Assembly (NCBI GenBank): GCA_002189035.1
Contig: CM007990.1
Location: 372,001-436,000, forward strand
DNA from: Utricularia gibba
Taxonomy: Eukaryota > Streptophyta > Magnoliopsida > Lamiales > Lentibulariaceae
Direction: 5' to 3'
Length of the DNA stretch: 64,000 bases
The notes beneath the pieces are model-generated. The model made no database searches. It saw only the letters and a list, made by a program, of their open reading frames with translations, and was not told the DNA's origin. Within the stretch, counting starts at the first letter, position 1, and each line of letters opens with the position of its first letter. Positions 31,685 through 61,218 of the stretch are shown here, in pieces. Both the position numbers and the translations under genes were made by a program.

Positions 31685-32734
31685 TTAGACCCTGAACCCT
31701 CTGCTGTTTCTTCTTCCTCTCGCACGTTCAAATTTCCTTCCCTTTGATCTCACATACGGCTTAGTGTGACTATGAGGCACACCAGGAGCAGGCCCAAAGT
31801 GCCTCACTGCTTCGCGGGCACTGCGAGAGCCCTCAGTAGGACCTGCTCGACCACAGTATCCACATTAAGCAACGTGCTCAGGGAGAAGTTAAAATTGAAA
31901 CCCATGAGGGAAGAGTGAAAATAAACTGAAAAAACGGTAGCTGGTGGCCAGATCCATGGTTATCAAACGATGACTAAATTCCAATGGTGATAAGAAACAA
32001 GAGTGCTGATGGAGTAAATTCAATTTTTGGGACACGAAAAAAGAGAACTTGAAACATTAGAGACGTTACCGTGTTCTGCCCGAGAGGAGCTCTAAGAGCA
32101 AGCTGATCAAAAGTTAGGCATTCCCCACCAGCATTCTCAATCCGAGCCCTTGCGGTTTCGGTGAACCTAAGTGCTGCAACCTTAAGAGAAGGCACTTCAT
32201 GGACCCTGACATCATCTGTGATAGTTCCAACAAGAACCGCAATCTTGTCCTCCTGGGATCAGACACCGCCGTATAAGCACGGGAGGAGAGGAACACATAC
32301 GCCCAAAAGGAACAGAGTTTTATGAAGAAAAAAGTGTGTTAGAGCAAAAAACCTTGTTCTTCATATGATGAATGAGGCGTCCAAGAGACAGCGGGGGCCT
32401 GTTAACCCTACTCATGAACAACCTTTTGAGCACAACCGCATTAAATCTACTGCCGGTTCTCCTCTCAAGGAACCGATACAGCTACGACACCAAACAGCAA
32501 ACAAATCAGACACTTCCACTACAAATCCAGCATCAAAATTCAAAAATAACCGAAGCAAACCTTCACTAAGAGCTTGATGTAGATATCATTTGATTTAGGC
32601 GCGGTTCGCCTGGTCTTCTTGCTCTTACCTCCGGCAACCAAATCGATCCCCTAAACCAGAACAAATAACGCATCAATTGAACAAACTCTCAAGGAAACGC
32701 CTGCGGATCCAACACCACCACGGCGGCTTACCAT
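31685..32734 (-). CDS. RPL18: 60S ribosomal protein eL18 (RPL18), with an apparent one-base deletion
   Basis: Five exons: 32732-32734 (ATG only), 32561-32650, 32353-32481, 32070-32252 and 31685-31842. The product is a structural protein of the large ribosomal subunit. The reading matches eL18 throughout: [20 protein letters not shown], then [20 protein letters not shown], then [15 protein letters not shown], ending [20 protein letters not shown] and RNSRGFRV. Exon 4 ends in phase 0 at GQNT and exon 5 opens VLLR. The frame then shifts at a G3 run (31830-31832) and the read-through would stop early. With a fourth G it reads [17 protein letters not shown], and the coding length becomes 564 nt, exactly the usual 187 residues. 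I take this as a sequencing error or a very recent lesion. The upstream region has a telo-box and site II motifs. Confidence 0.92.
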
Positions 32735-33327
32735 CGCTCCGCCTCGCCTCCTAGCTCCGCCTCCTTTTCATGCTACGAAGATCTGTACTTATACTAGGGT
32801 TACTGGACGCCGCTTCCATTGGGTATTCTGTTGGGCCTAGGCTCGCTTACTATTTCTCGTCAACGGGTCGCGTTTCGTGCATTGGGCCGTTTACCACTTT
32901 CATCGTATATGCCTTTAACTATTTATTTGGGTCAATTCGTTTAATCGAATCATTTTTTTATATCAATATAAATTATTAAAAGAATTCAAAAAAAACCAAT
33001 TGGTAATTTTAACATATTTATTCAATTTTCTATTTTTGAACTTAAAAAATACTTTCTCAATTTACATTATTTCTCAAAATCCAAATTCCTACAGTGTGTA
33101 GATTTCACATAACGCCCCTGCTTGAAATCCTCGTCCCCAAAAACTCAGGCTTGCCTGAAAATCTGGAAAAATGCCATCTTTTCCAAAGAAAGCCCATTGT
33201 TGTTAGGAGTGTGAAAACTCCTTAAGAAATTTGTTCACGACATGGAGATAACTGGGAAATCAAGAATCTCGATGGAAAGACTTGGGGACTGACAAAGGGA
33301 TAAGAAACTGAAGCACAAACCCACAGT
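32735..33327 (-). promoter_or_regulatory. eL18 promoter region with telo-box and site II elements
   Basis: AACCCTA (telo-box, minus strand) lies at 32795-32801, about 60 bp upstream of the eL18 ATG. GGCCCA (site II) lies at 32832-32837 and 32883-32888. This pairing is characteristic of plant ribosomal-protein promoters bound by TCP factors. The remainder (32940-33327) is AT-rich and then merges with the 3' flank of eL22. No gene is seen. Confidence 0.65.
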
Positions 33328-34090
33328 TTAATCTTCTTCCTCCGCCTCTTGCTCGGCAATGTTGAAATACCGGAGTTCATAGACACTGCGGTCTTTGTTT
33401 GACGCAATCACCCGAAGCCAGTCTCGCACGTTATGCTTCTTCAAGTACTTCTTTGTCAAGTACTTAAGATACCTACAAAGGGAATCAGCAATCAGAAAAA
33501 AAGGATGAGCTTGAAGAGAAACAACAAATGGCAGAAGATCATGCACATGAACCACCCCACAGGTTCATTCAACACAGGTACATTGACAGTGGCCCAACTA
33601 GCATATTCAAATGGGAGCTTCACTATCCCTTCAATATCCTCAAACTCCTACATTTCACAGAATAGAACAAGCTGAATATACACATTGGTATTGCAATGCA
33701 TCCCCATAGACCGGCAAACAAAAAGCATGCTTCTCATGTACCTTCAAAAGGCCTGAATTTACTGAATAAGATGTGATAACTTGTGATGCAAAGTACCCAT
33801 TTACCCAAGTATTCCACATTGTAAGCTTGAAGTAAGCCTTGATACGAAGACTATTACCTTTTGGAGAAAGCGGAGTCGGCGGTGACGGAAATCTTGTTTT
33901 TCTCACGGGAGATCGTGATAGCTTCACCGAGAGCCCCAGTTTTGCCACCGACCTTGATTTTCTCCTGGAGGAACTTCTCGAGAGAAGCAATTTCCATGAT
34001 CTTATCTTCCACCGGCTTCGAGCAATCGATGATGAACGTGGCGCTCTTCTTCTTCCCGCCCTTCGCTCCGGCCACCGCGCCTTTACTCAT
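33328..34090 (-). CDS. RPL22: 60S ribosomal protein eL22
   Basis: Two exons: 33858-34090 and 33328-33472, giving 125 residues, the normal eL22 size. It opens [15 protein letters not shown] and continues [55 protein letters not shown] and [17 protein letters not shown] with the usual acidic tail. The ATG at 34090 matches the family start, and an in-frame extension upstream has no family support. The intron is 385 bp. The gene is head-to-head with SmD2. No frameshift is needed. Confidence 0.96.
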
Positions 34091-34489
34091 CTTCGCTCTG
34101 TCGATCGCGGACGGCAAAGAATCGACAACTTTCGCTGGGTAAAACTCCAAAGACTTCCTCCCCTTCTAGGGTTTTATTGGTCAAAACGAAGTTTACTTGG
34201 GCTGGGCTTCACTTCTTAGAGGGCCTATCTACGGCCCATTGGTTCCACTTCATTCTGAAATTCCCAAATTCTGGCATCGGGGTTTTTTCGAAAACCCTCG
34301 CACGGAGCTCGATCTTCCGCACTTTAGTTGGTGAGTTTCGCTCTTAGTTTTCTTCTATATCACTTAGCAATGACCTGTAGATGCTGGAATGTGAATCTTA
34401 ATCCTTTCATTCCCAAAACATCGGTTTCATTTTCAGGAGCGTAATCCCCGGCAGGTTTTGCTTGAGTCGTCGGTTTTTTCAGAATCAAA
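34091..34489. promoter_or_regulatory. Bidirectional promoter region between eL22 and SmD2
   Basis: The two start codons are 399 bp apart. The region has AAACCCTA (telo-box, minus strand) at about 34167-34174 and a GGCCCA site II element at 34233-34238, with further TGGGC-type motifs at 34199-34206. The right part is probably SmD2 5' UTR. Confidence 0.6.
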
Positions 34490-35471
34490 ATGAGGTAAGT
34501 TATTGGACGCGTTTTACTGTCACTTTCTAGTTCTCCGGTCTCCTCTTGCTTGCAATGTTTCGTTGTTGTTGGGTAGCCTTTTCATTTCGTTGGATATTGA
34601 TTCAGCTGGGTACTTTCAGTAGCTGCATGAATTAGGGTTATCTATTCTACTTTTTGTTATACATCGGGAGGCTTGAGTTAACGCATTTTGTAAGACTACT
34701 AACATTTTCTCCTGCTTCGCTCCTCGCAGTCGCCCCATGGAAGAGGACGCACCGGTACCCATTTCTTTGCTTGTTTGCCTCATGGGTTTTGGCACCGTTG
34801 ATCATTATCTGTATCGTGTTTCTAAGATGTTGTCATGCGGGGTTTTTTTTTTCTCTGTGCTGAAACTGCTCACCATCTTGTTGGGTTTGTGCCACCTGGG
34901 AAGTGCCTGGTGAAACCAGGCATTGCCCAAATGCTTGTTGTTCGTTTGCGGAATAAAAATATGTGGCTGTTGGAGCTTCACTAATTTGGTTCAAAAATCA
35001 TTTTCAGTCAAAGAATGAGGAAGAGGAGTTCAACACTGGTCCTCTTTCTGTGCTGATGATGAGTGTTAAAAACAATACCCAGGTGCGAAAGTCGTCCTCG
35101 TGGGTTCATGCCTTGAAGCATTATACTTCAGCATTCGAGGTTTCACTTTTGTTTTCTTTTGCCATTTGCAGGTGCTCATCAACTGCCGAAACAACAAAAA
35201 GCTTCTGGGTCATGTGAGAGCTTTTGACCGTCACTGCAACATGGTGCTGGAAAATGTGCGGGAAATGTGGACTGAGGTGGGTTCGTTGCTCCTTCTGTGG
35301 CCTATTTTGCGGTTACCCTCATCTCACAAACTATTAACTATTGATTTTCCATAGGTTCCAAAGGCTGGCAAGGGCAAGAAGAAATCTCTTCCTGTCAACA
35401 AGGACCGTTTCATCAGCAAGATGTTTCTTCGTGGAGACTCTGTTATAATTGTCCTCAGAAATCCGAAGTGA
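34490..35471 (+). CDS. Small nuclear ribonucleoprotein SmD2
   Basis: Five exons: 34490-34494, 34730-34754, 35008-35082, 35172-35276 and 35355-35471, 108 residues, standard for SmD2. This core spliceosomal protein is part of the heptameric Sm ring around U1, U2, U4 and U5 snRNAs. It reads [10 protein letters not shown], then [20 protein letters not shown] (Sm1 motif), [33 protein letters not shown], and a lysine-rich loop [15 protein letters not shown] before the Sm2 motif [15 protein letters not shown]. The first exon holds only ATG plus two bases, so gene finders can miss the start. Exon phases join without a break. Confidence 0.96.
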
Positions 35472-35758
35472 AAGGTTCGGACATGAACCCCCATCCCAGC
35501 ACATCGACTTCCTTCCCTTGTAATATAAAACTGAATGTTGCCACAGGTGGGCTGCCTTCTGTGACTGCTGCGATCCACCTCGTCCCTCGTTTGGCAGCAG
35601 GTCCCAGTCCAACTTTTGTAGACTCGTTCTCCTTTGCTTTCCTTAGTGAATATTTCTCAGAAAACTAGCAGTGTTCGTAATTAAACGTGCTGTGCTTCTC
35701 AACATGGAACTACACAATGCACAACCAAAAAGAACCAAAACAGGCTTTATAAACAAGC

Positions 35759-36216
35759 TCACCAGCTGCTGTTCTCTACCACCATCTTCTCTGCAGAGGG
35801 TTCCCATCCCAGCAATTCCTTGGCCTTGGTGATGTCGGGCTTCCTCTTGTGGGGATCATATTCTGTGTTTGGCCTGAATTCGATCCTGGCATTGGGTCAA
35901 TTGTGGTTTGGACAACCTACAACCCACGAAACCCTTGATTCTTTTCCTTTTCTCTTCCTCAACAGGCATGATGCAGGTTTGTTGGAGCTTGCTAAGCCTC
36001 CTACCGGAGCAAGCGCAAGCACAGTGAACTCAAAGGAATCTTTTCAGACAAAACAATGAATGCTGTTACCAAATCAGATTCCCCATAGCCTGAGAGTTTG
36101 ATCAAGTATCTTAGTTCCACTTCCTCACAACCCGCCCGTTGCTATCCACATTCGAGGTCCGTGCGTGTTGAAGATCCAGCAAGCCTCACCTTAATGCCTT
36201 CTTGGCACAACAAGAA
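35759..36216 (-). pseudogene. Relic of a UDP-glucuronate decarboxylase (UXS) gene, C-terminal part
   Basis: The minus strand carries the end of a UXS-type nucleotide-sugar decarboxylase (UDP-glucuronate to UDP-xylose). About 36150-36212 reads EGIKVRLA then, one base short, IFNTHGPRM. Next comes a frame-shifted DSNGRVVRKW (family: DDGRVVSNF). Most of the following segment is lost or unrecognisable. About 35990-36025 reads FEFTVLALAP (family: GEFTMLELAE). After what looks like a retained intron (about 35929-35991), VVQTTIDP is followed, with a one-base shift, by ARIEFRPNTEYDPHKRKPD and ITKAKELLGWEP, then an aberrant end ENSSW-stop. Multiple frame breaks and missing sequence indicate a pseudogene. 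The retained intron argues for segmental duplication, not retrocopying. No upstream exons are recognisable beyond 36216. Confidence 0.75.
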
Positions 36217-36713
36217 TTGGTAGTTTCTTTATTCTAACACCCTTGCCTACACCGTCTCTGTAAATCAAACGCCTCCGCCACTGCAGCCGCCCCATCAAAA
36301 GGAGCTCAAGCCTTCTGCAACTGGGATCACTTCCCATAACCGAAATCTATGCTTCACATTCATTCTATAAAACACCCAAATTCTCATGCATCGGAAAAGC
36401 TCCCCCTTTTGGGGATCCCATCTTAGTTCAGAATAGGAATATATCAACATATTGGTAGTATGTATCTCAATGGTTGGAAAAGCAGGGCACACAAGAGAGG
36501 AACTTTTCATAGCTCAGTGAGTCCACTCACACACAAAAATTCTACAGACAAACGAGAGGGCCAACTGTGAGAAAGTTCTCAAGTAAACTTGAAGGTCATT
36601 GCCGAACCTCACATCGAAAGAACCTATTTCCATACCTGTTGCCTCTACCGATGCCATCTGAAAACAAACAAAGGGGGCAAGCATTGAACATTATTCACAG
36701 GCAGCAGCATCTG
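36217..36713. other. Non-coding stretch between the UXS relic and the nuclear-protein gene
   Basis: Nothing is recognisable here beyond the probable 3' UTR of the downstream-oriented gene at 36714. Short open frames on both strands show no family features. Confidence 0.5.
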
Positions 36714-37621
36714 TCAGATGGCATTCAGCATTCTCAGATCATGCTTCTTCCGGCGGCATCGATGATGAGCTTTTTGCAGTGAGTTTTCACCACCAGTTTG
36801 CATCCTTGAACCCGAATCTGTAGCAAAACAAGTAACCAGTTGTTTCCGTAAGAACATGATCCAAAAGTTTCTATCTTCCCGAGCAAAGAATGATGGACTT
36901 CACAACGATTATGTCTACTCCCCAAGACGCAATCTGTAGAAATCATATAGGTTTCATGTTAAAGATGAGAAAGCAATACCCCCAGCTCCAAGTTCGTCCC
37001 CCAGAACAAAAACCGCTGATCATCTTCTTCTTCGTCACCATATCCTGGTTCAGCATCACCTCTGTAACCGGGCTCACTTCCATACCCCGACTCATGAGCC
37101 TGATTGTCACCATTCCCAAATTGAACACATCCACTACTAGCATGCTCCCTATCCCCCGCGCCAGCTGGTTCCTTCTCCTTCCTCGAGTTCCGGTCGCTAA
37201 CATCCGACGCCCAGTTGGACTCGCCGAACAATTCCCCACTCGAATCAGTACCCCCCGCCGCCATCGGGAAATCAGAGCAAGTCCCATTCGCAGCGGATGC
37301 TCCCACGGAGCACCCCCTCCGATCGGAGCTCCGTCCGGACACGGACCTCGACCCGGCTCGTCGGCGGCGCTTCCTGGCGAACCAGCGGTTCCGAGCGGCC
37401 GAAACCGTGGTAGATCTTTCATCATCGAATAAGCTAAGCTTGGACATGTTAAGAATAGTGTCTATGCAAAAGGAGGATGTGGCACGGTCCGCCCTGCAAG
37501 GCCGCTTGCTGTGCGGGCCGACCGAATCGGAATCGGGAGGCTTCGCGAAGGGGCGCCAGCTGAACAGCTTCAGCGCACACGACTCCACTGCCGGCAGCAA
37601 ATCCCCTGCCCCGCCGCCCAT
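36714..37621 (-). CDS. Plant protein of unknown function, basic, probably nuclear (frameshifted in this sequence)
   Basis: Two exons: 36980-37621 and 36714-36817. The N-terminal exon contains KRPCRADRATSSFCIDTI, NMSKLSLFDDERS, a strongly basic ARNRWFARKRRRRAGSRSVS (likely nuclear localisation), a serine/glycine-rich middle, and an acidic, tyrosine-glycine segment ESGYGSEPGYRGDAEPGYG followed by DEEEDDQRFLFWG. After FLFWG the frame breaks at a G5 run (36998-37002). With six Gs it reads FWGDELGAG and the splice phase becomes correct. Exon 2 then reads MQTGGENSLQKAHHRCRRKK and HDLRMLNAI-stop, giving 248 residues. I infer a conserved plant family from this layout but cannot name it. Without the extra base the protein would end in unrelated residues. 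I placed the start at the ATG at 37621. Confidence 0.7.
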
Positions 37622-38546: not shown

Positions 38547-41500
38547 TCACCCCAAATGGAGGCCTGGAGGGGAAACAGGGCTCGCTTCTGATTGTGATCG
38601 GTCGTCCAGGCGAGGGACAAACCGGTTGAAGAGGGTGGGTGCCAGTGGCTGAATGGGGTAGAAATGGCGTTTCAGCTCTGCTGCGTAGTCTCTAACCTCC
38701 AGTGCATTAGGGGGGTGCAGTTCAAAGACGTAGCAGATGGGGGTGGACACTGCTGCTGGTTGTTTTGTGTCCATGGTGTCCTGCAGCTCCCCCAGGCTCA
38801 TTTCATCGTAGGGAAATGATGAGGAAAGGAAGAAGAAGCTGTCCCTCGCAATGGTTTCCACCTGATGCAAAAACACATTGGCTGAATCAGAAAGGAATAG
38901 TAGATTTCTAGTGCTGCTGGGGGGTGTTTAGATCTCCAGTGACATGATTACCTGCAACCGGGAAAAGCGTATGCTGTTCATGGTGAGAATCACTTGCACA
39001 TCCTCCAAGGAATTCGCTAGTATGCGAATGGCTAGGTAACTGAAGAAGTTCTGAACTGGGATTTGTTGTAGTTCTTCACCATTAGCAAAGCTAGGAATCC
39101 ACCACACACATTTGACATCTTCCCAGGGGACCTTGTTCTCGTCTTGCCTAGCCATTATGGTTTGGTGTGGATGGCTCAGTCCCCACAGAATCTGAATTTC
39201 ATCCAGTGGAGGATTTACAGTGAAGGGATCAGCCTGTGGAGTGGTGGAGACTATACAAGACGGTTCATACAGAAGAGCGAGGTTTGAAGACAAGCGCAGA
39301 TCCACATCGTCCAATACTAGCACAACACCTTGGGAGGGAGCAGGAAATAGCTGCAAAAGATTTTCGGCATCGGCAATTTCATCTTCAGGGAGACAAAGGT
39401 CACTAATGCTGTAAGGTATGGCGGTAGGTTCCACATCATGGGAAAAGAAGCATGAATCTCCATTTCGGCATCCCTGCACACAGGATACACCTTACCTTAT
39501 GGAGAAAGACAAGCATCAGAGGAATTAAGTTCGGGAACAGGCACAGTTCACATTGGTTGCGAGGCAGAAAAGATGATACATACCTTCAAGGAGAAAAAAA
39601 AATTGCAACGTGGCTTTCTTGCTGAGAGCTCGTGAGAAAATGGGCATTCATTGCCCCTGTTACAAGTCCCATTGACAAAGTACCTACACAATGGCGCCCT
39701 CCCATCTGCTTCATGTCCATTATTATGATACGCATACTCATTTTGATTTTTTGAAACATCAACAGCAAGCTGGATTCGCATCTATATTTCAAGGGCTTTG
39801 TGAATATATCATCAGCATAAAATAGTTTCTTAACAATAATCAAGGAACCTTTACCTCTTTGACTGTAGATCCAAGCTTCCTGGATATCTCATTCACACAG
39901 AAGTCGCCAGGTCCAACAAACGGTGCAGCAATGCACTTTGGCGTATCTTCATACCCAATCTCATCATCTTCCAGGGATAAACTGCCAATATCTATATTCT
40001 TCGCAGAATCAAGAACACATGAATGCTGGAATCCGGATGGCTCATAGTAAACTGGAATGCTATTGGATATAACCAAACACTGGGGCCGATATCGATGTAG
40101 AGAATTTATGATTTCATCATCTGAAAAAAAAAAGATAAAAGAAAATACCATATTAAGAAAATAGTCAAGATAACAGAAGGGATGCGATGGTATACATGTT
40201 TCATTGACTTGTTCAAGCGCAGGCAAGACAAGTTGATGAAAGGAGCACCATTCCTCTTCAACAATCCGAATGAGACTTTTTATTTCCTTGGTCTCATTGA
40301 CATTAAAGATGTTTCGGAGTCTGTTAAAGCGGGACGTATCCTAAGCAGCAACACAATGACACAAAACATGACATTAAAATATGTGAAAAAAAGCATCAAA
40401 GAATTATCAGCAATGAAGAAAGGACATGACATAAGAATAAAAATATACCTTGAAAGCACATTGCCAAAATTGAAATGCACAAAAGTTGGCCATATATAAT
40501 ACCTCCAGGCCACCAAGGACAGCATTTTTACCATTTACACGATAGTAGCTATCAGTACAGTCCATCGCCTAACACAAAAAGTGAGTGATGTCTAAGCAGT
40601 GATAGGAACTGCAAGATTGAAAAGCAAGGTATTACCATGGCCTGACCAAACGGGCGGTGAATGGGCAAGGGCTGTAGATCCATCAATATTCCAAAAATAA
40701 TGCCTTCCCGCAGCATCCCCATGTTTGCAAGCTTCAGGATAAGGACAGACGCGTTGAATGATAGGCAGAAACTGGATAGTAATTGCCCATAATATGTTGG
40801 TGCATAACGGCCTCTATATGGTTTCTCTAATGCCTTCATTTGAACCAGCAAATCTAAAGCATCCTGAACAACATTGTGATCTGGAGGATCCATGGCTTTC
40901 TGAAACAGTGCTGAAACAAAGGAAAGATCAATATACATTTTCAAATCAGTGGAACAGCCAACCATAAACACCTAATGCCACAAACAACAAGTACTTTCAG
41001 GTTTTTCCTCTCCTAATGCCTCATGAAAAACTGTTAATTTTAACTTTCCTTTTCACTGCACCCACACATTCAATAGTCAAAATGCATCAAACATGCGACG
41101 AGGTTAAATTTAAGATTCCAGATAAAGATCTAGTAAGAAATGTAGCAAAATTCTGGTAGCAGCACAATTATTGAATCACCTTTGGGATCATTAATTATTC
41201 TAGACTCTGCACAACACAAGAGAAGAGTCTGCTGCCTCAGTGACAGCTTTAACAATGCAGGGGACTCAAAATCATCCAATTGACCATAAAATGATTCAGT
41301 TACTAGTCGATAAATCAAACCATCACATGTCCGACCAGTTCTCCCTCGACGTTGTTCAGCCTGCACACACAAAAGAACATGCAGCCATTCCATATACATG
41401 TATTGTTCGGGTGTAATGAATCTCTGCCAACAATTACCTGTGATTTCGAAACCCAAACAAGCATTGCTGAGTCTGTCTTTAGATTGTTGTCCCAAAAAAC

Positions 41501-43678
41501 TTGCAAAGACCGGCAAGAATCTATCACATACCCCACTTTAGGTATTGTAACAGAAGATTCTGCAATGTTTGTGGCAAGTATTACCTGGAACACAAATATT
41601 TATAAAAGAAAATCAATTGAAATATAGAACAGCGCTGAGTCTTCTTCAATATTTTCTGCCAGATAAAAGAAATTCAATGAAGAAGACACATAACCTTGCG
41701 ATGGGACTTCCAGATCTTCATGGATTTGAGAGCTTGTTCTGTATCAATACTACGATGCAAGATGTGAACTTTGAAATCCTTACTGAAAGGCTTCAACAAG
41801 GACCACTGTTGCTCTAGTGACTGATAAGTTGGAAGAAAAACCAATATGCTCTTTTCAATATCTGGTTCATTTTTGTGAGTATGCAAAATCAAATCATGTA
41901 TCAGATGATGAACTTCTGCTTTGAAAACAGCATTAGCCTTTCTTGGGCTAGGACCAGAGCAGTATTTAGAAGAAAGGCTATCACAGTTCATCCCAAGAAG
42001 TTCATTAACCTGCTTGTTAGGAAAAAAATGATTAGAAGAGCAAGATGATTCTGTAAACATGTGAACTACAAACAAATGACCTTTATCTGTAATTATGTGT
42101 CATAATCTCTCAAAACTTTGGCCATTTCTTCATCAAAAATTTGATGGTATAAAATATGTAACACAAGAAGACAACCCTCAAGAATTTTCCAAATAATTCT
42201 TGTTCGTTTACTCATTGCAAAATGAGTTTTCACAGATTTTCGTACTGTATAACTATCCTCACATAAAAGGCGAAATGAAGGCCTTCTCAAAAGAAGACTT
42301 GCAACAAATCAACCATACAGAGGATATAGGGAAAAAATAACCTGGTCCAGGTACACCACTTTTTTCTGAAAGGAGATATTCTTTTCAGTACTAGGGATCG
42401 CAAGAACTTCAACCCTTTCACCCCTTCCAAGATCCTTGAAGTATTCACGGTACCTTGTGATATCTGCCGTTGCAGACATCAAAACCACCCTGGAGAATCA
42501 TACTCGGAAGTTTTATGCTAAGGGTAAACCAGGAAGGTGGACAAAAGCTCGTTTCCTTGTGAGAAAAAAAAAATGCAATACAAACTGGAGAGATCAGTAT
42601 ACCTCAAGTCATGCTTTTTAAGTAGAAACTGCTTTATGCAAACAAGTACAAGATCAGACTCTACAGATCTTTCATGCACCTCATCCAAAACAATAACCTT
42701 GTATTTAAGGGCATTCAACCCTTTCTCTTGCATTTCATCCAACAAAACCCCAGCTGTTTTGAAGATAATCTTGGACCTGAGCAAAAATTTTTTAAAAAAA
42801 TCACCCAGAGTACTTAGATGGCTGAAGTACTGAAAAAAAAAATGGAGATAATCATGCAAAGAAAAATTACACCGAGTTGATTGGCAGTGGAATTTTTTTT
42901 AAAATAAGTGTTACGACAGAGTATATGGCCAACCATCAAACTTATATTGCCTTCCTGCAAACGCGTAGAATGAAACTAGGCATAAGACACTTACCGCACG
43001 GCAGAGTTGAAACTCTATTAAAGCAAAATAATTTCATTCCCAGCTTACATTTATTTATTTTTAATTAATGATTAACCAGTATCACAAAAAAAAATCACAT
43101 TAACGCATGCAAAAATAGTATCAAATAACGAGATCCACGAAAATGGTGGATTCGCACTTTATGATCAATGACTAGCATCAGCGATTCACACGTCTAACCT
43201 GGTGGAGAAAGCCCTTGAATGGCCAATATGGTATCCAACTTCTTCACCTACCTCACATTTACGAATACCTGCCACCATTTTAGCAACCGCCACTACAGCA
43301 AACCTCCTCGGCTGCGTGCATAGTATAGGTTCAATATTCTTCTCAAGCAGAAATTGCGGAACTTGAGAGCTCTTACCTATGATTCATCCATCGATAACAA
43401 AGAAAGATCATTTACCATCCGTAGCAGGAAAATGAAAAAAAAAAAAAAGATCCTACGGATACTAGTGCAACAGATCATCCCCAGTTTCTAAAATCTTGAA
43501 ATACACTCAAGAAAAAGAGCAGTAAAGAAAAAGAGCAGAGACCGCAGCCGGTTTCTCCAACAATAAGAGTAACACGATTCTCCATAATCTTCTCGACGAT
43601 TTTATCCTTCATCGCCAACACCGGAAGCGCAGAGAAGTCAGGCAACGCGGCGGGTGCCGGCGTCGGAGAAGACCCCAT
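38547..43678 (-). CDS. DEAH-box RNA helicase with two CCCH zinc fingers
   Basis: A multi-exon gene of the plant 'zinc finger CCCH domain-containing helicase' type (Arabidopsis C3H31-like). Helicase motifs appear in order: motif I GETGCGKSS (split between exon 1, ending 43543, and exon 2, about 43198-43379), motif II LDEVHERS (about 42690), motif III SATAD (about 42475), IAESSVTIP (about 41560) and motif VI QRRGRTGRT (about 41335). A helicase-associated region follows (about 40560-41200). The C-terminus has two CCCH fingers: CRYFVNGTCNRGNECPFSH (39640-39700) and a second whose CNFFFSLK and GCRNGDSCFFSH halves lie on two exons. A long tail ends SPPGLHLG. The ATG at 43678 starts MGSSPTPAPAALPDFSALPV; upstream in-frame sequence has only a GTG. 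An RNA-remodelling role is inferred from the domains; the substrate is unknown. Confidence 0.9.
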
Positions 43679-44435
43679 TTTGATACAAAAACCGCTGAGC
43701 GGGGGCGTCAACTCAACAGCATGCTCAAGTGGCGGCGAGCAGAAAGGAGAATACTCGCCCGCGCCCACTTTGTGCTACTTTCCAGGCTTCTCTGATTAAA
43801 TTCATAAACCGTTCGCTTCATTTCACTTAGCGCAAGCCCTAAATTAGCCGTTACGTAATATTTGTATCCTTTTTTTAATTCATCTATTTTGTTTTTTGAT
43901 CACTGTTAATTCATCTATTCATTTTATTTGAATTATTTATATTTAGAATATAATTAAATTTCATTTTGATACATAAATTTTGAATACATATATTTAAAAT
44001 AATATAATATTTGATAAATATATTTAAAGTAAATATTTTACAAAAATCATTTAGAATGGGAAATTTGAAATACTTAATTTGAATCGTTTTACAGTATTTT
44101 TGTAAAATACTTGTGTATTATTAAATTAATCTGCCTAACATATATGAACAGTTAAACAAACTTATCAAATGTTTCTTAAAGACATATTATTAATAGCTAG
44201 TATTAATAAAAAGATATTGATGAATATATTAAAATTTCATATTTATTTCATAATGAAACTTTTAATAATTCTACTTTTTATTTTTTACTATCTATATGAC
44301 ATTTTTAGTCTCCATTTATTTTTTATTTATAATAAAAGTAATAAAAAACGATAACAAAAAAAAAATTTAGAAAGAGAATTGGGCCACGACAACTCCAGCA
44401 GAAAAACAGGCAAAGCTCGAATTTGGCCGACGATA
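43679..44435. other. Divergent upstream region between the helicase and the GST
   Basis: Both flanking genes start here in opposite directions. About 43860-44360 is very AT-rich (long A/T runs, no coding signal). I see no specific regulatory motif that I can defend. Confidence 0.5.
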
Positions 44436-46831: not shown

Positions 46832-49194
46832 ATGGCCGTAGCAAGTTTTGAGCTTCTGCCCTGCCACGGAAGGAGGTGCATTGTCCGCGCCTTCCAGCCG
46901 CCGTGTTGCTCGGTCTGGAGCGCAGTATCTTTCCCGTTGTCGATAACGTGGTTTGTTACCGGAAGATTGGCGCGTTCGTCTTCAATTAATTTCAAGAAAG
47001 GCTCTGTTGGCCCACTGATCCAATGCTCGCAATCTAATTCCTCTGCTTCTACTTCTCCTGAGTTTGAATCCCCACGGCTGAATCATGTGTAAACATGGGT
47101 CTATCTCTTTTCTCCAAGGGACGGGTAATTTCCCTGATGATTGGAAACTTTTTTTTTTTCATTTTGTTCTCCAATGTACTGGGGATCAGCATTTTGTGTC
47201 GTGATTGGGTATTTCAGGTTAAAGATGCTCTGGTGCAGTTTGATACAGCTCTCACATTGGATCCCAGCCCAAAAGAAGCGCAAGCTGCATTATATAACAA
47301 AGCCTGCTGTCACGCTTACAAGTTGATTTTTTGAATGCTTATTTAAATTCTCTTCGGTTGCTTATCCGTATCAATTAGAAATGTTTTTTTACTGTTTGTT
47401 GCAGGAATGAAGGAAGGAAAGCTGCTGATTGTTTGCGTACAGCTTTGAGAGAATATGGCCTCAAGTTTGGCACTATATTAAACGATCCGGATCTAGCATC
47501 ATTCAGAGCAATGCCTGAATTTAAGGAATTGCAAGAAGAGGTCATATGATTATATCTCTTGACAGTTTAAATTGTCACCCCTTTGCCTGTTGTCCTGGAC
47601 CTTTAATCAATGCTTGCCGTGTTCATTTTCTGTTTTTTTTCATCTTCAACAGGCAAGATTGGGCGGGGAAGATATAGGATATGGCTTCAGGAGGGACCTA
47701 AAACTAATAAGTGAAGTGCAAGCACCATTTCGTGGGATCCGCAAGTTTTTCTATGTAGCACTAACAGCTGCAGCTGGGATTTCATTAGTTTTCACCATAC
47801 CTAGGCTTATTCTTGCTTTTCAAGGAGGTGAAGATGCTCCTGACATATGGGAGACTTCAAAAAATGCAGCTATAAATGTTGGAGGTGAGCATCCATGAGC
47901 ATAAGAAGCAACTGAGCGATTTAATCGACATTAATGAAGCTCTTGACTCAGTATACTACAGGCATAATTGTTCTTGGGGACTATATTTTTGGGAAAGCAA
48001 CAAAGAGGAAGAACAACTTGCACAAATTACTAGGAACGAAACCCTTTCAAGGCTGCCTATTCGCCTTTCGACCAACAGAGTTGTTGAACTTGTGCAGCTA
48101 AGAGAAACTGCCAGACCTGTTAGTGACACCTCGTGGCCAACTTTCTGCTTAAAACTTAAGTTCGTTGACTTTTCTTGTTATTCGTTCTAGACATATCTCT
48201 TAGCTGGTTGTGGGCATAGGTCATCTTGGCTGGAAATAGGGAGACAGTTGATTCAGCAATGAGGAAGGCTGAGAGGTTTCGAACTGAACTTGTTAGGCGA
48301 GGGATCATTCTTGTTCCTGTTGTATGGGGCCAAGGCCGAGAAGCATTGGTGGAGAAGAAGAAGGGGTTTGGTTCCTCTCCGAAGGCAGAGTCATCTCTTC
48401 CATCCATCGGGGTATGTATTGTAATAATGAAGTTCCTGTTCAACCATAGCATGTGAAATGTCTTTTCTGTAGTTTGTTGCAAGCTAAATGCAGACATGAC
48501 AGTACTCCAGGACAATCATGTGCATGTATTTGCTGTCAAGTCATACTAAGATTGGACATAGTTTTTACAGTGACTTGTTGCTGCTGGATATATGACAGGA
48601 AGAATTCGAGGAGAGGGCTCAATCTGTCGTTGCAAAATCAAAAATCAGAGCAGAGATCCGATTTCGGGCAGAGATTGTATCTCCTGCTGAATGGGAAAGG
48701 TTGAGTTTTTCCATTACATTCTTTTGCATTCCTCATGCAGCTCTTTTCAGCTTGAATCTTTTATGTTATTTTTCTTCTGGTTGCTACTTTTTTAGGTGGA
48801 TCAGGGATCAACAAAAGGCTGAAAACATAACTCCAGGAGAAGACGTGTACATAATCCTTCGTCTCGATGGCCGTGTCCGAAAATCAGGGCGGGTTAGTGC
48901 ACCCTCACTGAAACCTCATTTATTTAAAACCCAAACGATTCATCCTAAAACAATCACGGAAGTCAACAAAAGTTCTGTTTTTTTTCCTTTACTTGCTGTG
49001 CTGGGCTTAGCCTCAAATAGATGAATTCTCTAACCTAAGAACCCCCATGTCATGCTCATATGAACCAGAAAACCCTGTATGCCATAATCTCCTCCATAAT
49101 GTGGGTTTCTGTGGATCAGGGCATGCCTGATTGGCAAGAAGTTGTGAAGGAAGTGCCTTCAATGGATGCATTTTTCAGCAAACTTGAAAGATGA
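46832..49194 (+). CDS. LPA1: LOW PSII ACCUMULATION 1-like chloroplast TPR protein, with two apparent one-base deletions
   Basis: LPA1 is an intrinsic thylakoid protein that helps assemble photosystem II. Exon 1 (46832-47124) encodes a transit-peptide-like N-terminus (MAVASFELLPCHGRRC...). The tetratricopeptide region follows: KGRVKDALVQFDTALTLDPS, EAQAALYNKACCHAYKNEGR, then LNDPDLASFRAMPEFKELQE and ARLGGEDIGYGFRRDLKLIS. Two membrane segments come next (FFYVALTAAAGISLVFTIP and GGIIVLGGLYFW), then the stromal domain TLSRLPIRLSTNRVVELVQL to GMPDWQEVVKEVPSMD and SKLER-stop at 49192-49194. Two breaks need repair: C4 at 47070-47073 (C5 gives SPTAESCVNMGLSLFSKG) and G4 at 47976-47979 (G5 gives IVLGGLYFWESN). 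Each makes an ungapped fit to the family. For the second, an alternative splice acceptor at 47950 keeps the frame but destroys the conserved GGII segment. Confidence 0.9.
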
Positions 49195-49645: not shown

Positions 49646-50703
49646 ATGAAGAAGAATCGTAACGATGGAAGCAATGGCGGCGGGGAGAATCAAATCAAAG
49701 ATCGGAAGAAGAGAATGAAGAAAAATATGGACCGAATGGGGGAAGGGGTGGGTTGTCGCTCGCTGCTTTCGCGAATGCCAAGACAAGGAACGAGAACTAT
49801 AACCCGGCTGTCATAAGTAAGTTTCTCTTGCAAAACCTACATTCGTATCAGATTATTTGAGTTCTGCCATGGTTGCAGTTATTCATGAAGCTAAGTTCTG
49901 TAGGAATCTGGTGTGGGTTTTCGTCTTTCTGTGGGATAATCAGTATCCATTGTCGGGTTTTAGTAACATGTTGTCCATGAGCTACACAGGCTTCACGTTA
50001 CCAGTATATTGAGTAGGAGATGGGGAAAAGGGGGATCTTGCCAATTTTTCCATTGACGCCTAGAAACCCAAGCTGAAATTTTTAAATGTTTATTGGGTAT
50101 CTGTTATCTTCTGGAGATTGTTCTGTCAGGTTCACTGTAATATGTAATGTTCCTTGATGGACGTCTCACTGACACGCAATTTGCTTCTCTAATGGCTATA
50201 GAGAAGCAAAAGGAGTTCTACAGAAATGCCAAGTTCGTGCAGAAATACAAGAGGTTGATAAACCAACAAGCTCATGTGGATGCACCTTCCACAAGCAGGA
50301 GACCATCAGAGGTGCGTATGAATCTCATTTGCATGTCAATTACGTTCAAGCCTGTGAGCATGATCTACCAGAAAAAAAAAAAAAAAAAGCTTAATGTCCT
50401 TGAGCACTGTGGTTATTGAAACAGGGCGAAAACGACGCCCATGATCCTGCTGCATTCAATAAGAAAAGCAGGAAGCAGAGCCAAAGCCTGGAGGCGTTGT
50501 ATGAGAAGACAAAAGAAGAGGAAGAGAGAGCTCGTGCGGAGCGGGCAGCCGCAATCCAGGCAAAGGCAGAAGCCAGGCAGCAAGCAGAAGCAAAGAGAAA
50601 AACCCAGAGACAGAGAATGCTGAAGAAGACCAGATCCGGCCAACCAGTGATGAAATACAGAATTGAGCATATTCTAGAAACCCTTCAAAACGAAGCAAAC
50701 TAA
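49646..50703 (+). CDS. FYV7-like rRNA-processing protein, with an apparent one-base deletion
   Basis: Three exons: 49646-49816, 50202-50311 and 50425-50703; 186 residues after allowing one missing base. The FYV7 family acts in early pre-rRNA processing in the nucleolus. The N-terminus is lysine-rich (KDRKKRMKKNMDRMG), followed by the family core GGLSLAAFANAKTRNENYNP, AVIKKQKEFYRNAKFVQKYK. A basic coiled coil (SLEALYEKTKEEEERARAER, then AEARQQAEAKRKTQRQRMLK) comes before the end RIEHILETLQNEAN. The start codon frame and the core frame disagree by one base at neighbouring G runs (G5 at 49738-49742 and G4 at 49745-49748). One extra G in either gives a glycine-rich join and correct phases through both introns. 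Site II-like promoter elements lie upstream. Confidence 0.85.
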
Positions 50704-51231: not shown

Positions 51232-53388
51232 TCAAGAAGACATTGCTGAGGAACCGCCGTCCATCGTCCATACAAAACCGGGAAAATCGTCCCTCCGCCC
51301 GGCGACGGTGCGGTAAATGTAGAGTTTCTCGACGGCGCATTCATCGGGGATGGAGTCAGGGGGGCCTCGTTCGTCGATGACTTCGACGTTGAGTTTCGGC
51401 AGCTTCTGACCAAGAAGCTTACATGCTCCGAGGGTTACGGGGCAATTGGACATCCAAAGGGATCGCATTGTCTCCAGCTTTGCGGCGTTGGCCAGGAGAG
51501 CTTTGTCGCCGAACGGGCTGTCCCTGATCTCCAGCTTCCTGAGGCTGTGGCAGCCGGAGAGCAGGTGGTGGAGACCCAAGTCGCTGTCCCCGGCGAAAGC
51601 TATTGAGAGCATCTCTAGTTTCTTCGCATGGGTGCCGATGTACTTGAAGCACTGGTCAGTAAGAAGGCCGGAAAGCGAGAGCCGCTGCAAGTCCTTGCAC
51701 ATCTCGACGATGGCACCAAAGCCGGCATCTAGAGGCTGATGCGTCAAGTAGTCAGGCACTCGAGGTTCCAGAATACAGAGACGAAATCGGATCATGTTGG
51801 GGCGATTCCTCGCGATGGAAACCAGAGCAGCATTGGACATCCGGCGGCAGAAGTAGAGGACAGATTGGAGCTTGGTGCAGCCGTGTGAGACGGCCACAAG
51901 CCCCTTTTCCGTCAAGGATACATTAGGCTCCACCCTATAAGGTTCTGAGGGGAAAACTCGAAGTTCTTGCAAGTCTTTACATGACATGGCCACAGCTTCG
52001 AGGCCACTGTCCTCAATGTGATCCAGCACCTGCATGAAAACAAGTATCAGAGTAACCAATCTCATGGAGCTCCATCTATGTTAAGAAAAAGGAGATCGGT
52101 CATACCCAGAGACGACGTAAATTGGAGCATTGGCTAACAATTTTGATCAAGTCAGGGCTCTGAATAGTACCATAGCTCAAGTTCAGAGAGGTGATTCCAG
52201 AGCACAAGGGGTAGATGGCAGGAAGATAAGCGGGGGCAACGTCCCAAAACCCTGATAAATCCCTGATTTGCTTGCATTCTGAAAATGCAGAAGCCAGGGA
52301 TGTGAAAGTGTCATTGCGGATTTCGTATGTGTATGAACCAACTCCCAGCTCAACCAACTGAGGGGCACGGCGAAGCAAATTAGGAAGCTTTTCCAGTGAA
52401 ACCGAGCGATTCAACCGCAGACTTCTCAGGTTTGGGGACCGTGCGACGAGACGCTCCAAAGCAGAAAACATCACCTCAGAGAGCAAGCAGGAAATGTTGA
52501 GTGAAACTAGTGAAGTGTAGCAATCAGGGAAATGACTAAGCCAGTGTCCACTTATGTCATCCACATCGCTCTCCCTCAACTCGAGTTCTCTAAGATTCCT
52601 GCAATGGTTGATGTTATCTTCAATTAAAAATCAGAGCACCATAAACAGATAGCCTGCAGAATCACTATGAAATGAAGCAAAGATGGGAACTTTTTGGGGG
52701 ATTAGGGTTAGGAGGGCACGGCCCTTTCTCGTAAGGGAAAAGGGTTTCCTAGTCATCCCGGCGACTACACAGACGAGGATTGTTATGAAAAACTTCGCCT
52801 GTAGCTCCATAAGCAGAAAAAAAGAGAAATTTTACGGCATAAATCGGAAGGAAAATCTCACCCAATCGCGTAGTGCACACCCAACATTCATATCAAGTAC
52901 AGAGAACATGAAATAGAAGCGTAAGTGTTTGGACCTGCAATTGGCGGCAATGGAAGCTAGCCCATCAGCTGTGAACCCATCGCAAGAAGTGAGCACCAAA
53001 ACCTTGAAGTTCCTGAACGACTTAGATATCAGATCCAAGCTCTCGTCACTAACCACCATGCGCTTCAGCCTGATCTCCTCAAGAAACGGATAAGAAACGG
53101 ACATCGCGACTATCCACGGATACACATAAGCCCCCATCCCTCAGGCACGAGGTTAAAATCAGCGAAATGCGGTTTCCCCTTCATTTCCAAAACCCTAACT
53201 TCCGGAAATCTCCGGATCAGGATCCTCGGCGACACCGCGTAGCAATTACCGATGAAGACACGGCGGCGGCACCAGCGCTCGATGTCATACCAAGATTTGG
53301 ACACCAAGGAAACAGCGCTCCTGTCCTTGTCGCAGCTCAAGAAGGAGAAAACATGCTCCAAAACCTCCTCCGGAAACGCGTACTCCAT
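51232..53388 (-). CDS. TIR1: TIR1/AFB auxin receptor F-box protein (TIR1 clade), with an apparent one-base deletion
   Basis: Three exons: 52935-53388, 52106-52598 and 51232-52029; 581 residues after allowing one missing base. The protein is the substrate receptor of an SCF ubiquitin ligase and binds auxin together with Aux/IAA repressors in the nucleus. The F-box is [13 protein letters not shown] with [20 protein letters not shown]. Leucine-rich repeats follow ([71 protein letters not shown]-type segment). The RFRLC and LSLSGLLTD segments keep the arginine and serine that line the auxin pocket in Arabidopsis TIR1. EPNVSLTE and PGFVWTMD favour TIR1/AFB1 over AFB2/3. The frame breaks at C5 on the + strand (53131-53135): six bases give [15 protein letters not shown]. 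The 5' flank has a GA repeat. Confidence 0.95.
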
Positions 53389-53454
53389 TGCAGAGCTGGG
53401 CGAGTAACCAGATCTCGAGCTCGGGATCTGAGAGTTCGAGGAAGACGAGAGCCG

Positions 53455-53478: not shown

Positions 53479-53894
53479 AGAGCGATAAGTTCTTTTTCTA
53501 GCGATTTTTATTACCTTTTTTTTTCAACAAGGCGTGGGAGAGGAGAGTGGTCAGGATTATTCAACTGGTAGTCGTTGAATATCATGTAAATTCTTAAATA
53601 TAATTCACTTTTTTTATCACCCAATAATTTTTAATTAATTATTTTTATATTACTTTTATAACATATAATATTTTCGAAAAAAATGTCAAAATATTATTAT
53701 GTTATTTTAAAAACTAATTAAGTATACAAAATATATCATATTATAAGTTTTTTATTTAAAAAATAAAATAACTTAATACGCTAATAATTTTTTCTTATTA
53801 AATTAAAAAACCAAATACAAGAGATAAATTAAAATATGCGAATAATAATATAAAAACTAATCCTTGTTCTAACCATTTGCCCCATATCGGGATG

Positions 53895-54016
53895 TTCCCA
53901 CGTGTCGCGTTCTGAGGCGTCGATTTCATCGGCGGCCAGCATCTTTTGGCTCTGTCCGACGCCCGACCATAGAAACGGAGAGAAACATGGGTCCGTGCCA
54001 AGGTAACGGTAACGGT
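53895..54016. promoter_or_regulatory. Candidate distal TIR1 regulatory island (G-box and MYB-type repeats)
   Basis: CACGTG in a CCACGTGTCGC context lies at 53899-53904, about 510 bp upstream of the TIR1 start. A direct repeat of GTAACG at 54003-54014 lies about 100 bp further. Both sit in a GC island within AT-rich DNA. Function is inferred from motif resemblance only. Confidence 0.35.
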
Positions 54017-56867: not shown

Positions 56868-57957
56868 ATGGTGGACGGAGATTCCAAGGGGTCATCACAT
56901 TGGTGGTGGCTCGACAGCCACTGTAGCAGCGACAGTCCGAATAGGTCGCCGTGGCTCCGGTCAACACTTGCAGGTGACCTTCCTGTTGCTTTTAATTCTC
57001 TGTTTTTCTTGTTCATTTTTGAAAAGTTTCTCCATGTGGGGTGGGGCATGGTCATCTGAAGAAAAAAACAGTCCATGTGGTGAGGGTGAGAATTTTACCT
57101 TTTTTGCTGATGACCGTTGGAGATGCATGTACTGCAACTACTTGACAAAAGAATCTCCAAAAGATTAAACCTTGAATTGGAGAAATTGTATAGTTGGAGG
57201 CTTCATCTGTTAAAATTTGTTCCCAGAGTTGGATGCGAAGACTAAAGGAATGTTGAAGGTGATCGAGGAAGAAGCAGATACATTCGCTCAACGGGCGGAG
57301 ATGTACTATCAGAAGAGGCCTGAACTGATTATGATGGTGGAAGATTTCTATCGAACTCATCGTTCACTTGCTGAGCAGTTTGATCACATGAGATCGGAGC
57401 CCGGATCGCGCCTGACGAGCCCCTGGCCGTCGCCGCCGTTGCCTTTCACAAAGTACAGACTGGGCAAGTCGTTGAGCATGACTGAGAAAGCGTATGATAG
57501 TTACTCTGAGCAGTATGATCATGAGGAATCTGATGAGTCCGTCATTGGCAATCCCGAATTACAAGAAGAAATCGAATGCCAGGGCGACGAAGTGTCCCTC
57601 GCCGCAAGCAATGAAGAATCAGTTATTCTCGGAGAAGAGGCGCAGAGACTTGGAACAGAAAAAGAGGGTCTCAGCAGAACTACAGCCAATGAAGAAATCT
57701 TGAGGCTAAGAGAAGAAATTGTGAGACTTGAGCAAGAAAACCAGGTTCAGAAGGAGGAACTAAAGCAGAAAGATGAAGAGAAAAGGGAGGTTATCAGGCA
57801 GCTGAGCTTAGCCATGGACCTGCTCAGACAAGAAAATGTGAATTTCAGAAATGCTTTGGCTCAGAAATCTCTTAGGACAGAGAGCAAGCATCAGAACAAT
57901 AAAGCTCAGGGATTCCTTGGGAGATTGCTCACCGGCTTCACAAAAGCTTCTCACTAG
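56868..57957 (+). CDS. NETWORKED/KIP1-like actin-binding protein (NET3-type)
   Basis: Two exons: 56868-56973 and 57227-57957, 278 residues. NET proteins bind actin filaments through the N-terminal NAB domain and link them to membranes. The NAB domain is recognisable: SSHWWWLDSHCSSDSPNRSP then WLRSTLAELDAKTKGMLKVI, EEEADTFAQRAEMYYQKRPE and LIMMVEDFYRTHRSLAEQFD. A linker rich in acidic and serine residues is followed by a C-terminal coiled coil (EEILRLREEIVRLEQENQVQ, KEELKQKDEEKREVIRQL) and the end GFLGRLLTGFTKASH. The short length and single NAB plus one coiled coil fit NET3 rather than the giant NET1/NET2 proteins. The ATG at 56868 is the first one consistent with the NAB start. The intron is 253 bp. 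Confidence 0.88.
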
Positions 57958-58136
57958 ATCGACATTCAGTTCGTGTGTGTCTTGTGTGTGCATACATCCA
58001 TATATATGTTCATGAGATTCAATTACACAAACATGTATTATGTAATAAAATATAGTTTCCATGACGTGGCAAAATTGGCACCAATGGCTGCACATGGTCA
58101 TAAAGGCATGCATCCAATCATACACCCTTACCCGGA

Positions 58137-58502
58137 TCAAGAGCGAACCAAAACAATGATGAGTATAGTTGCGGCCGTGGACATTCTCGGCCGAACAGAA
58201 GAAGAAGAAGACAGCGAAGCCACTGCTGATTCCGGGGCAAGAGTTGGTTTTGCTGCATCAGGATTAGGAGGGCTGGGGTTCGATGGAATGATAGGAATAG
58301 TGTGTTGACTCGGAGAGATCTCTGAGGCGGTGGCAGAAGGCTGATGAGGAATGTGATCAGGTGATGATGATTGGGATGAAGCCACCGGAAAAACGGGTTC
58401 AGGTAGCAATGCCGGTGCAGCAGAGATGAGAGATGAAACAGAAGGAGAAGAAGATGTCACAGTAGCAAGAAACAGGAGAAAGGGAGCCATGAAGGCAGCC
58501 AT
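58137..58502 (-). CDS. Classical arabinogalactan protein
   Basis: A single exon of 121 residues. It has an N-terminal signal peptide (AAFMAPFLLFLATVTSSS), a central region rich in Pro, Ala, Ser and Thr with spaced SP/AP/TP pairs (HQPSATASEISPSQHTIPII, NPSPPNPDAAKPTLAPESAV) suited to hydroxyproline O-glycosylation, and a hydrophobic C-terminus (STAATILIIVLVRS) preceded by small residues, fitting a GPI-anchor signal. Classical AGPs are plasma-membrane or wall proteoglycans; this one is most like the AGP25-27 type. Compositional families allow only a general call. It is tail-to-tail with the NET3-like gene, about 180 bp away. Confidence 0.75.
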   Translation of the reverse strand: MAAFMAPFLLFLATVTSSSPSVSSLISAAPALLPEPVFPVASSQSSSPDHIPHQPSATASEISPSQHTIPIIPSNPSPPNPDAAKPTLAPESAVASLSSSSSVRPRMSTAATILIIVLVRS

Positions 58503-58888
58503 TTTGGTTACTAGAGAAGACCATTGTTGGGGGAAGGAAGTGATTTAAGTCAGGGGGTTGAGAACATGGATGAGGGACATGACAGGGATGTATGAAGAGG
58601 AAATGGATTCCCTTGTCCGAAGGGAAAATGCCTGGTTTTTGGTGGCCACGTGACTGTACTTTCATCTAACCAGGGGCCAGTTTTGTCTCTCGAGTATCAA
58701 TATCTAGAAGCCTGATCAAATTTGAACTCCACATGGTCGAGGCACATTCAAAGCAGAGATGACTGCCAAAAGCAAACAACAGGGAACCTAAAAATGGCAC
58801 ACGAGTCACTGAATGCCAAGTCACTACTTGTTTCCTAAGGGACATCTAATGTACAACATCAAACTCCATAGCTGAAACACAGTAGATT
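58503..58888. other. Spacer between the AGP 5' end and the RopGAP 3' end
   Basis: It should contain the AGP promoter and 5' UTR and the RopGAP 3' UTR, as both genes are on the minus strand. No other feature is supported. Confidence 0.5.
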
Positions 58889-61218
58889 TCAGCTAGTTGG
58901 CCACTGCAGATTCTGCAATGTAGCTGTCGAGATCATTGGCACGTTCTTCATCTTCGGTGTTTCAATCTTCAGACAGGGAGAGGAAGTGATGGAACTTACC
59001 CTAGAGTCTTCATCTTCACCATCACTTGAGATGAGGAATGAGCTTTCCATTCTGCTTTCAGATAACGAAAGGCAACAATTTGTGTTGGTTGTTAAGCTTG
59101 GTGGGCTTGCTGCACAATCATTCCTGCTAATGATCCAATCCTCCTGTTTCTCGTTTGAGGATAAGAACTCATCTTTGTCTCCACTGCTGCATTCCTCCTC
59201 ATGCTCAGAAGCCGATTCGCAGGAAGCTTCTTCTTCCATCTCTTGTTGGCTGTCATATTCTTCTTCCTCCGTGGAATGAGACGATGGCGCAGAGGAGTAG
59301 CCTTCCTCCCTATCCCGAAGAGCATTTGATATCAGCATCTTAAGCAAGTTCATCACTTGGACAGCATGCATGAGAGCTGTTAAGGGATCAGACATCTGCA
59401 TAAACAAAAATATTAGAATACAGATTGGAAAGTGAAGGCAAGGGGAGTGAGAATCACAAGCACAGCAAGAACCTTGGTCATGTTTGGAGCAAAGACCATA
59501 GCAATATTTCTTTCATTCATCTTGTTGAACTCTTCCAGCTCCACAACATCCGCCATCAGATCAACTGCCCAGCTCAGAAGAGCACTTTCTGTTGGCTTTA
59601 ATTGCTTGATCAACTCAACAGCCCCCTCTTCGCTATTGCATTCCAGCACCTGTTCTGGAGAAAGTCCATCCAGAATACCAGATGGCAGCTCCCGGAACCA
59701 AGCTTTGATCAGACCGGCAAGACAATGGACGTCTATCTCTTGAGGCAAGATGCCACGGTTCAGCTTGTCCCTAACATGTTCCTCTTGCCCATTCTCCGGG
59801 TTTATTCGAAAAATTCCTTCCGACTACCAGACAATATGAGTCAGTGCTGCTCAGGAAATAACTCTTTAAAAAGCAATATTACGCATTATGGAATTGCGTC
59901 CTCACCTTCAGTCCTCCTTTTGAGTACAGGGTCTCCTGCATTAGTAACAGAATGGTGGGAACACTGTTTCCCCTGGAGTCGTACGAGCACTGCATTGACT
60001 CCGGAGACACCCCGAAAGCACTGATGCTGAAACAGTTCACAAGAGACAAAGGTAGGTACATCATGTTTTAATCCCCAAAACTACAATTCAAATAGCTTTG
60101 CAGGTAGAGCTAATACACAATTTTCACTAACGGGCAGGTCAATGAACAGCAGATTTCCCAAACCACTACACATGCTATGCTATGCTTGAGTTAGTGGGAT
60201 TCATCCATCAGCTTTTTTAAAAAAGCTGCTGACTTAGACTGCACAGACATGAATTGAAACGAAGGGTTCACAGTATTCATGAGGATTGAAGTTTACAGGC
60301 TTAGAAGATAATGACTGCAACCTCCAAATTTAAAACTTGGTCCTACGTAAGCTAAAATCTTGTGAATCCTGTCTGAAGAGTAAATAACATGGACCTCGTG
60401 CAAATTTACCCATTCGTTTCAAGAGAAATGAACAGTGGCAGAGAGATACTTGCTTCCTGAAATGAATACTTGTTATTTACATGCCATTACTGTGTCACCC
60501 TCCAGGTCAGAAGTAAATTTAAAACCCATCTGCCACTGAGGGCCACTTTTCAGCTTCTATTCCCTCTTCAGTTTGTCTTAGGCCTTGGCACTCTCAGATA
60601 AAAATCAAATTGATGATGTAAAAGAAAAAAAAAGCATATTTACCAGAAAACACAACCCCAGATTTTCCCCTGCACGGTTTCAAGTGTTCTTTTTTCTTCC
60701 CGAAGTTCGCTAACACTAAAGTAGAAAACCCAAGACTCAAATTTTATATTTTTTTTTTCAAAAAAATTGGTTCTTTGACATGACCCTACATTTTCCAAAA
60801 GCTTAAAATCTTTTTGAATCTTATCATTCGTAGCATGAGCCTGAAAAAATAACGAAGTCCTACGCTGAAAGTCAGGAAATTTAAGAGTTTACGTACCTAG
60901 CACTTGGTGCTCGGCATGTTATCTCAACCTCAAACTCAACGGGGAGCCCCAGAAATCCATGAAATCTATCGAAAGTCACATGAGTTACGTGCTGAAAGTT
61001 CGTCGGCCATCCTATTTCCATCTGGCGGACGGCGGAGATCACATCCTCATCCTCGCTCTCCACTTGACAAGTAGACACCATGGACTTTCTCAGAGCCGAT
61101 AAAATGAAATCCATCACGGATATCTGCTGCTGCGATTTCTCCCCTTTTCAGTTGACTCGAACTTGGGCTCCCTCCCAGCACAACCGCTGCCCCTCGTCAC
61201 CATAACCACGCCCGCCAT
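58889..61218 (-). CDS. CRIB-type Rop GTPase-activating protein (RopGAP), with an apparent one-base deletion
   Basis: Four exons: 60897-61218, 59906-60026, 59473-59823 and 58889-59395; 433 residues after allowing one missing base. RopGAPs switch off Rho-of-plants GTPases at the plasma membrane. A CRIB motif (EIGWPTNFQHVTHVTFDRFH) is followed by the RhoGAP domain. That domain holds SVPTILLLMQETLYSKGGLK, the catalytic arginine-finger segment EGIFRIN, VHCLAGLIKAWFRELPSGIL and NMNER-type MNERNIAMVFAPNMTKMSDP. The C-terminus is an acidic, serine-rich tail. The N-terminal frame breaks at G4 (61141-61144 on +, CCCC). With five Gs, the upstream ATG at 61218 reads through STEKGEKSQQQISVMDFILS into the CRIB exon. 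The alternative is a start at the ATG at 61114, lacking 35 residues. Intron 1 is 870 bp and holds nothing recognisable. Confidence 0.92.

Follow-up and report, generated by a model that had tools for sequence, protein, structure and literature searches.

A 64,000-nucleotide stretch of the Utricularia gibba genome (contig C2, positions 372001 to 436000; herein the window, whose own numbering is used unless a contig is named) carries conserved genes whose reading frames are broken by the loss of single bases, mostly in or beside runs of G or C. The same lesion is found in GRAS, HSP70 and paralogous genes elsewhere in the genome, which was searched as 516 contigs comprising 100,091,633 bases. We consider it highly probable that the breaks are consensus under-calling errors of a long-read assembly and that the real genes of the plant are intact. 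This reading is favored because the breaks are losses only, are enriched at G/C runs and recur on many contigs, and because the three copies of one locus differ by losses without coding substitutions. Ribosomal, HSC70-type and hormone-receptor genes, whose frames are open apart from the break, are among those hit.

Window genes were remodelled with GT-AG introns and their coding lengths then summed. Four of the broken genes have coding sequences that are one nucleotide short of a multiple of three: eL18 (31685 to 32734, minus strand; 563 nt), with its break at 31830 to 31832 (sense GGG); an FYV7-like gene (49646 to 50703, plus strand; 560 nt), broken at 49738 to 49742 (GGGGG); a TIR1-like gene (51232 to 53388, minus strand; 1745 nt), broken at 53131 to 53135 (sense GGGGG); and RopGAP (58889 to 61218, minus strand; 1301 nt), broken at 61141 to 61144 (sense GGGG), upstream of its PBD and RhoGAP domains. 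The fifth gene, LPA1 (46832 to 49194, plus strand; 1387 nt), is two nucleotides short and is broken twice; the frame shifts at CCCC (47070 to 47073) and again at GGGG (47976 to 47979), the latter within the DUF3493 domain, which according to Pfam extends across the break. These are six of the seven sites at which the initial annotation of the window had placed a loss of frame at a G/C run. Its exon sums with one extra base per gene (eL18, 564 nt; a “nuclear protein” gene, 747 nt; FYV7-like, 561 nt; TIR1, 1746 nt; RopGAP, 1302 nt) are exact, each remodelled coding sequence being one base shorter.

Placing a neutral N at the six breaks yields uninterrupted proteins of 187 (eL18), 462 (LPA1), 186 (FYV7-like), 581 (TIR1) and 433 (RopGAP) residues, and no further stop is met in any of the five. 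Pfam names the bridged proteins as Ribosomal_L18; DUF3493 (low PSII accumulation 1); rRNA_processing; F-box_5 with Transp_inhibit; and PBD with RhoGAP, respectively. In three of them the match is gained or lengthened by the bridge. In the raw frame eL18 scores 227 bits and covers profile positions 1 through 141 of 188, whereas the bridged protein scores 310.8 bits and covers positions 1 through 188; the Transp_inhibit domain of TIR1 goes from 25 of 47 profile positions to all 47; and the FYV7-like protein, whose raw frame has no Pfam family, matches PF08524 with 48.7 bits once an X stands at the break. Residues 1 through 135 of eL18 also match chains assigned to eL18 in ribosome structures (best E value 2e-70). 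The initial annotation is confirmed at these six sites.

The remaining site, in the “nuclear protein” gene (36714 to 37621, minus strand), differs. Its remodelled coding sequence of 746 nt likewise needs one more nucleotide to be divisible by three, and a break was proposed at 36998 to 37002 (sense GGGGG). The raw frame stays open for 241 amino acids without an added base, no Pfam family was matched, and a genome search for a paralog with E values up to 1 returned only the gene itself and thus no paralog that would back its second frame. For these reasons the break in this gene is a proposal only, and the site is unproven.

The paralogs of eL18 and TIR1 bear on which base is missing. Two paralogs of each gene have one additional base at the break, which differs from those of the G run and interrupts it; the lost base at these two sites may therefore be the interrupting one, and it need not have been G or C. 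At other break sites, too, the lost base is ambiguous owing to the degeneracy of third codon positions. The location and the one-base size of the window breaks are firm, and the missing base is not established as G or C everywhere.

Outside the window, GRAS loci were found genome-wide with the Pfam model (70 rows), and 18 split loci and 24 single-row loci were retrieved. Twelve of 35 loci are broken, by 16 one-base losses, and the other 23 are open. Kept outside these 35 were the copies at the tips of C414 and C416 (L023 and L032), their open copy on C422 (L058), a duplicate on C316, two loci that are open by eye across an intron and so were rejected as broken (L021 and L028), two decayed-looking loci (L031 and L033), and pieces on C402, C177 and C321. 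The match on C402 (1216543 to 1218138) is an odd one: three domain pieces lie in a single open frame of 598 amino acids, and a fourth overlaps them and has internal stops. We discounted two insertion calls, since one lies in the C414 tip copy that had been excluded and the other beside the L025 intron. Among 14 paralog models of window genes (on C451, C3, C1, C414 and C321), five are broken, by six losses and no gains; at two of these events, leucine and aspartate codons permit either T or C, and neither lost base itself lies within a G/C run. The HSP70 listing has 71 rows; frame was examined in six HSC70-type genes, chosen by their long second exon, and two of them are broken by one loss each, adjoining CCC or GGG, yet they share 95% and 97% identity with paralogs that are open.

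Taken over the window (6), GRAS (16), paralog (6) and HSP70 (2) sequences, all 30 hard breaks are losses of one base. Of 600 simulated deletions the aligner recovered 599, placing them with a median error of 2 nt, and of 120 simulated insertions it recovered 114; because of the latter, the missing gains are not due to blindness of the aligner. The 18 GRAS and HSP70 breaks lie close to G/C runs. The longest such run within 6 nt has a mean length of 4.00 at these breaks and 2.06 at the 599 simulated deletions (Mann-Whitney p about 6e-9); a run of at least four is present at 10 of 18 breaks vs 7.3% of simulated deletions, and a run of at least six at 5 of 18 vs 0.17%. A/T runs show no excess at the same breaks over simulated deletions (p 0.96), and A/T runs of at least three outnumber G/C runs in each of the three coding-sequence sets that were counted. 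In five GRAS events (L020, L025, L027 and two in L030) it is ambiguous which run was affected. We rely on the simulated-deletion test and not on a Fisher test (7e-7), for which break counts were typed by hand and L020 was entered as a G/C event. A G/C run of at least four lies within 3 nt of 5 of the 6 hard window breaks, vs 5.3% of deletions placed at random in ten coding sequences of the window, the six break positions having been set by hand at the run.

Some breaks stand apart from such runs. Two of the 18 (the first event in L017, and L027) have no G/C run of at least three within 6 nt, and one of the six paralog breaks, in a RopGAP paralog on C1, has no run of at least three of any base within 8 nt. 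The breaks prefer G/C runs and are not confined to them; the initial annotation, correct in ascribing the losses to under-calling in the assembly as far as their direction, their enrichment and the disagreement between copies go, was too strict in restricting them to G/C. The rate is 6 hard breaks per 9.2 kb in the window (11 coding sequences counted; genes followed only by eye are outside this denominator) and 16 in about 38.2 kb of GRAS domains, or one per 2.4 kb. Since the sampled sequences have about 50% G+C, these rates should not be transferred to the whole genome.

The uniform direction of the losses also bears on whether the broken genes could be recent pseudogenes that followed whole-genome duplication. 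Several of them have paralogs in other blocks, so that their loss might be tolerable, and decayed-looking GRAS loci do exist, such as one at C3:261182 that holds four stops. Pseudogenes would, however, be expected to mix gains, losses and further stops, and there is no gain among the 30 breaks and no further stop in the five bridged window genes. LPA1, the FYV7-like gene and the nuclear gene have no second copy among the best candidates of the DNA searches with the window that could serve as a spare, and the conserved HSC70-type genes are broken as often (two of six). We give real gene decay almost no credence.

Redundant contigs provide a direct comparison of the same sequence with itself. 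One GRAS locus occurs in the tail of C414, the head of C416 and C422 (L058), an indication that the assembly keeps unmerged redundant ends. Relative to the open C422 copy, the tail of C414 is 8 bases short, through 4 events, with no mismatch in 1074 columns, and the C416 head lacks 1 base with no mismatch in 869 columns. The whole overlap of C414 and C416 spans 2222 columns and shows 3 mismatches and 20 indels; 15 of the indels are bases missing in C414 and 5 are bases missing in C416. Across 10,000 columns, the 38-kb contig C316 has 7 mismatches to C412 and is separated from it by 13 indels, all of which are bases missing in C316. A second haplotype of the window itself was also sought in the assembly; the best DNA-search candidates have only 66 to 92% identity and are mostly paralogous exons.

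In the mechanism that we favor, a consensus called from noisy single-molecule reads omits a base within a homopolymer or next to one, most frequently at G and C runs and increasingly with run length. We infer that the sequence comes from the PacBio HGAP/Quiver assembly of Utricularia gibba. A review describes the long-read assembly of this species as made with HGAP from PacBio long reads only, with 581 contigs and an N50 of 3.4 Mb (PMC5793159). Accurate reads would be expected to show one additional base at the break sites. The pattern has precedents in two bacterial reports: 205 indels remained in the HGAP/Quiver PacBio assembly of Streptomyces albus SM254, and almost all of them lay in homopolymers of G or C (PMC4832174), and 561 single-base deletions of homopolymer type were found in a PacBio assembly of Enterococcus faecium ATCC 700221 (PMC4888979). 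The likeness is in the single-base homopolymer deletions that remain after HGAP and Quiver; the difference is that those bacterial assemblies were checked with Illumina reads, whereas here a plant assembly was assessed via frames, paralogs and redundant contigs. In the cases treated by Kastor, frameshifts in long-read assemblies likewise give genes the appearance of pseudogenes, although that tool is described as intended for genomes of small size for which a curated reference set exists (PMC12007338). A literature search over titles and the openings of abstracts found no report of such errors in this assembly.

Several observations weigh against under-calling at G/C runs as a full account. 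Its basis is frames, paralogs and redundant contigs, and single sites are individually unproven. The sequence has 516 contigs where the review gives 581 (PMC5793159), which does not favor the identification of the assembly. All seven histone H4 genes are open. Long G/C runs are not always shortened: the idea that they are cut off altogether was suggested by a maximum of six in the window and rejected, since runs of exactly seven G number 2706 in the genome, counting both strands. The redundant copies, too, show a broader spectrum than the coding breaks, with single-base events at 7 G/C and 9 A/T positions between C414 and C416 and at 4 G/C and 5 A/T positions between C316 and C412, and with events longer than one base in 4 of 20 and 4 of 13 cases, respectively. 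These are small contigs or contig tips, which may differ in error profile, and few reads may have covered them. In a third pair, the 31-kb contig C241 and C304 near 2.235 Mb, the best piece covers 3457 columns with 16 mismatches and only 2 indels, both of them bases missing from the large contig; this pair may represent a true haplotype or a duplicate. Two of the three redundant-copy comparisons look like error, and the C241/C304 pair does not.

That pair has substitutions of the kind expected of real haplotypes or duplicates, and homopolymers are mutable; one could accordingly suppose that the assembled haplotype truly lost single bases while other haplotypes are intact. Real indel polymorphism of this kind nonetheless seems very unlikely. 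Only losses are observed, the broken allele would have to be present at every one of several unlinked essential genes in the same window, and the three copies of the GRAS locus differ by losses with zero substitutions in 869 to 1074 columns, where real haplotypes should have some.

It could also be supposed that the run lengths are real and that slippage at the run restores the frame, by correction at the transcript or during translation. The concentration of the sites at homopolymers, where slippage is easiest, would fit. The sites are not conserved, however, the paralogs of eL18 and TIR1 being full-frame at the homologous place; copies of one locus disagree with one another; and some breaks have no run nearby. 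We know of no slippage-correction mechanism for nuclear plant genes. Correction of this kind is exceedingly improbable, and we would put next to no weight on its larger form, in which the plant truly carries frame-breaking losses, mostly at G/C runs, in a large fraction of its conserved genes and makes full proteins through transcriptional or translational slippage.

Read as under-calling, the feature is an artefact and not biology, yet it is consequential for gene annotation. Gene models derived from the assembly may often be truncated or split, because 12 of 35 GRAS and 2 of 6 HSC70-type genes are broken, and reads should be consulted before gene loss or truncation is inferred from it. A published truncation was examined as a candidate for such an error. 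U. gibba DCL3 is reported to lack the helicase and Dicer dimerisation parts, and the authors give transcript and 5' RACE (rapid amplification of cDNA ends) support (PMC8333044). An RNase III pair at C213:2761967 to 2762970 (in L062) is, by elimination, probably this truncated DCL3. No Dicer_dimer match was found on C213 at E values up to 10, which agrees with the published gene and with the identification of the sequence as the U. gibba assembly. Upstream, inspection by eye of the plus-strand open frames of at least 30 amino acids in C213:2753001 to 2763000 revealed no helicase frame. On these two grounds the published truncation does not seem to derive from base loss.

Other window genes are undisturbed. 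With the same splice modelling, eL22, GSTF, MYB and NET are unbroken with coding lengths that are whole multiples of three, as is SmD2 after its first exon was repositioned. A gene with DEAH-helicase and CCCH-finger parts (38550 to 43680), a PMEI gene and a pectinesterase gene, followed by eye only, look open across their introns; an apparent break in the PMEI gene (29940 to 30732) was an intron and was rejected. The first 25 kb of the window hold what we take to be a Midasin-like gene. The gene order of the block at 32030 to 58660 recurs at C451:2.215 to 2.242 Mb and C3:3.655 to 3.682 Mb, and these collinear blocks fit whole-genome duplication, as expected. Within the block, 35770 to 36420 resembles the broken remnant of what is presumably a UDP-glucuronate decarboxylase gene; positions 35799 to 35927 match C451:2219803 to 2219932 at 87%.

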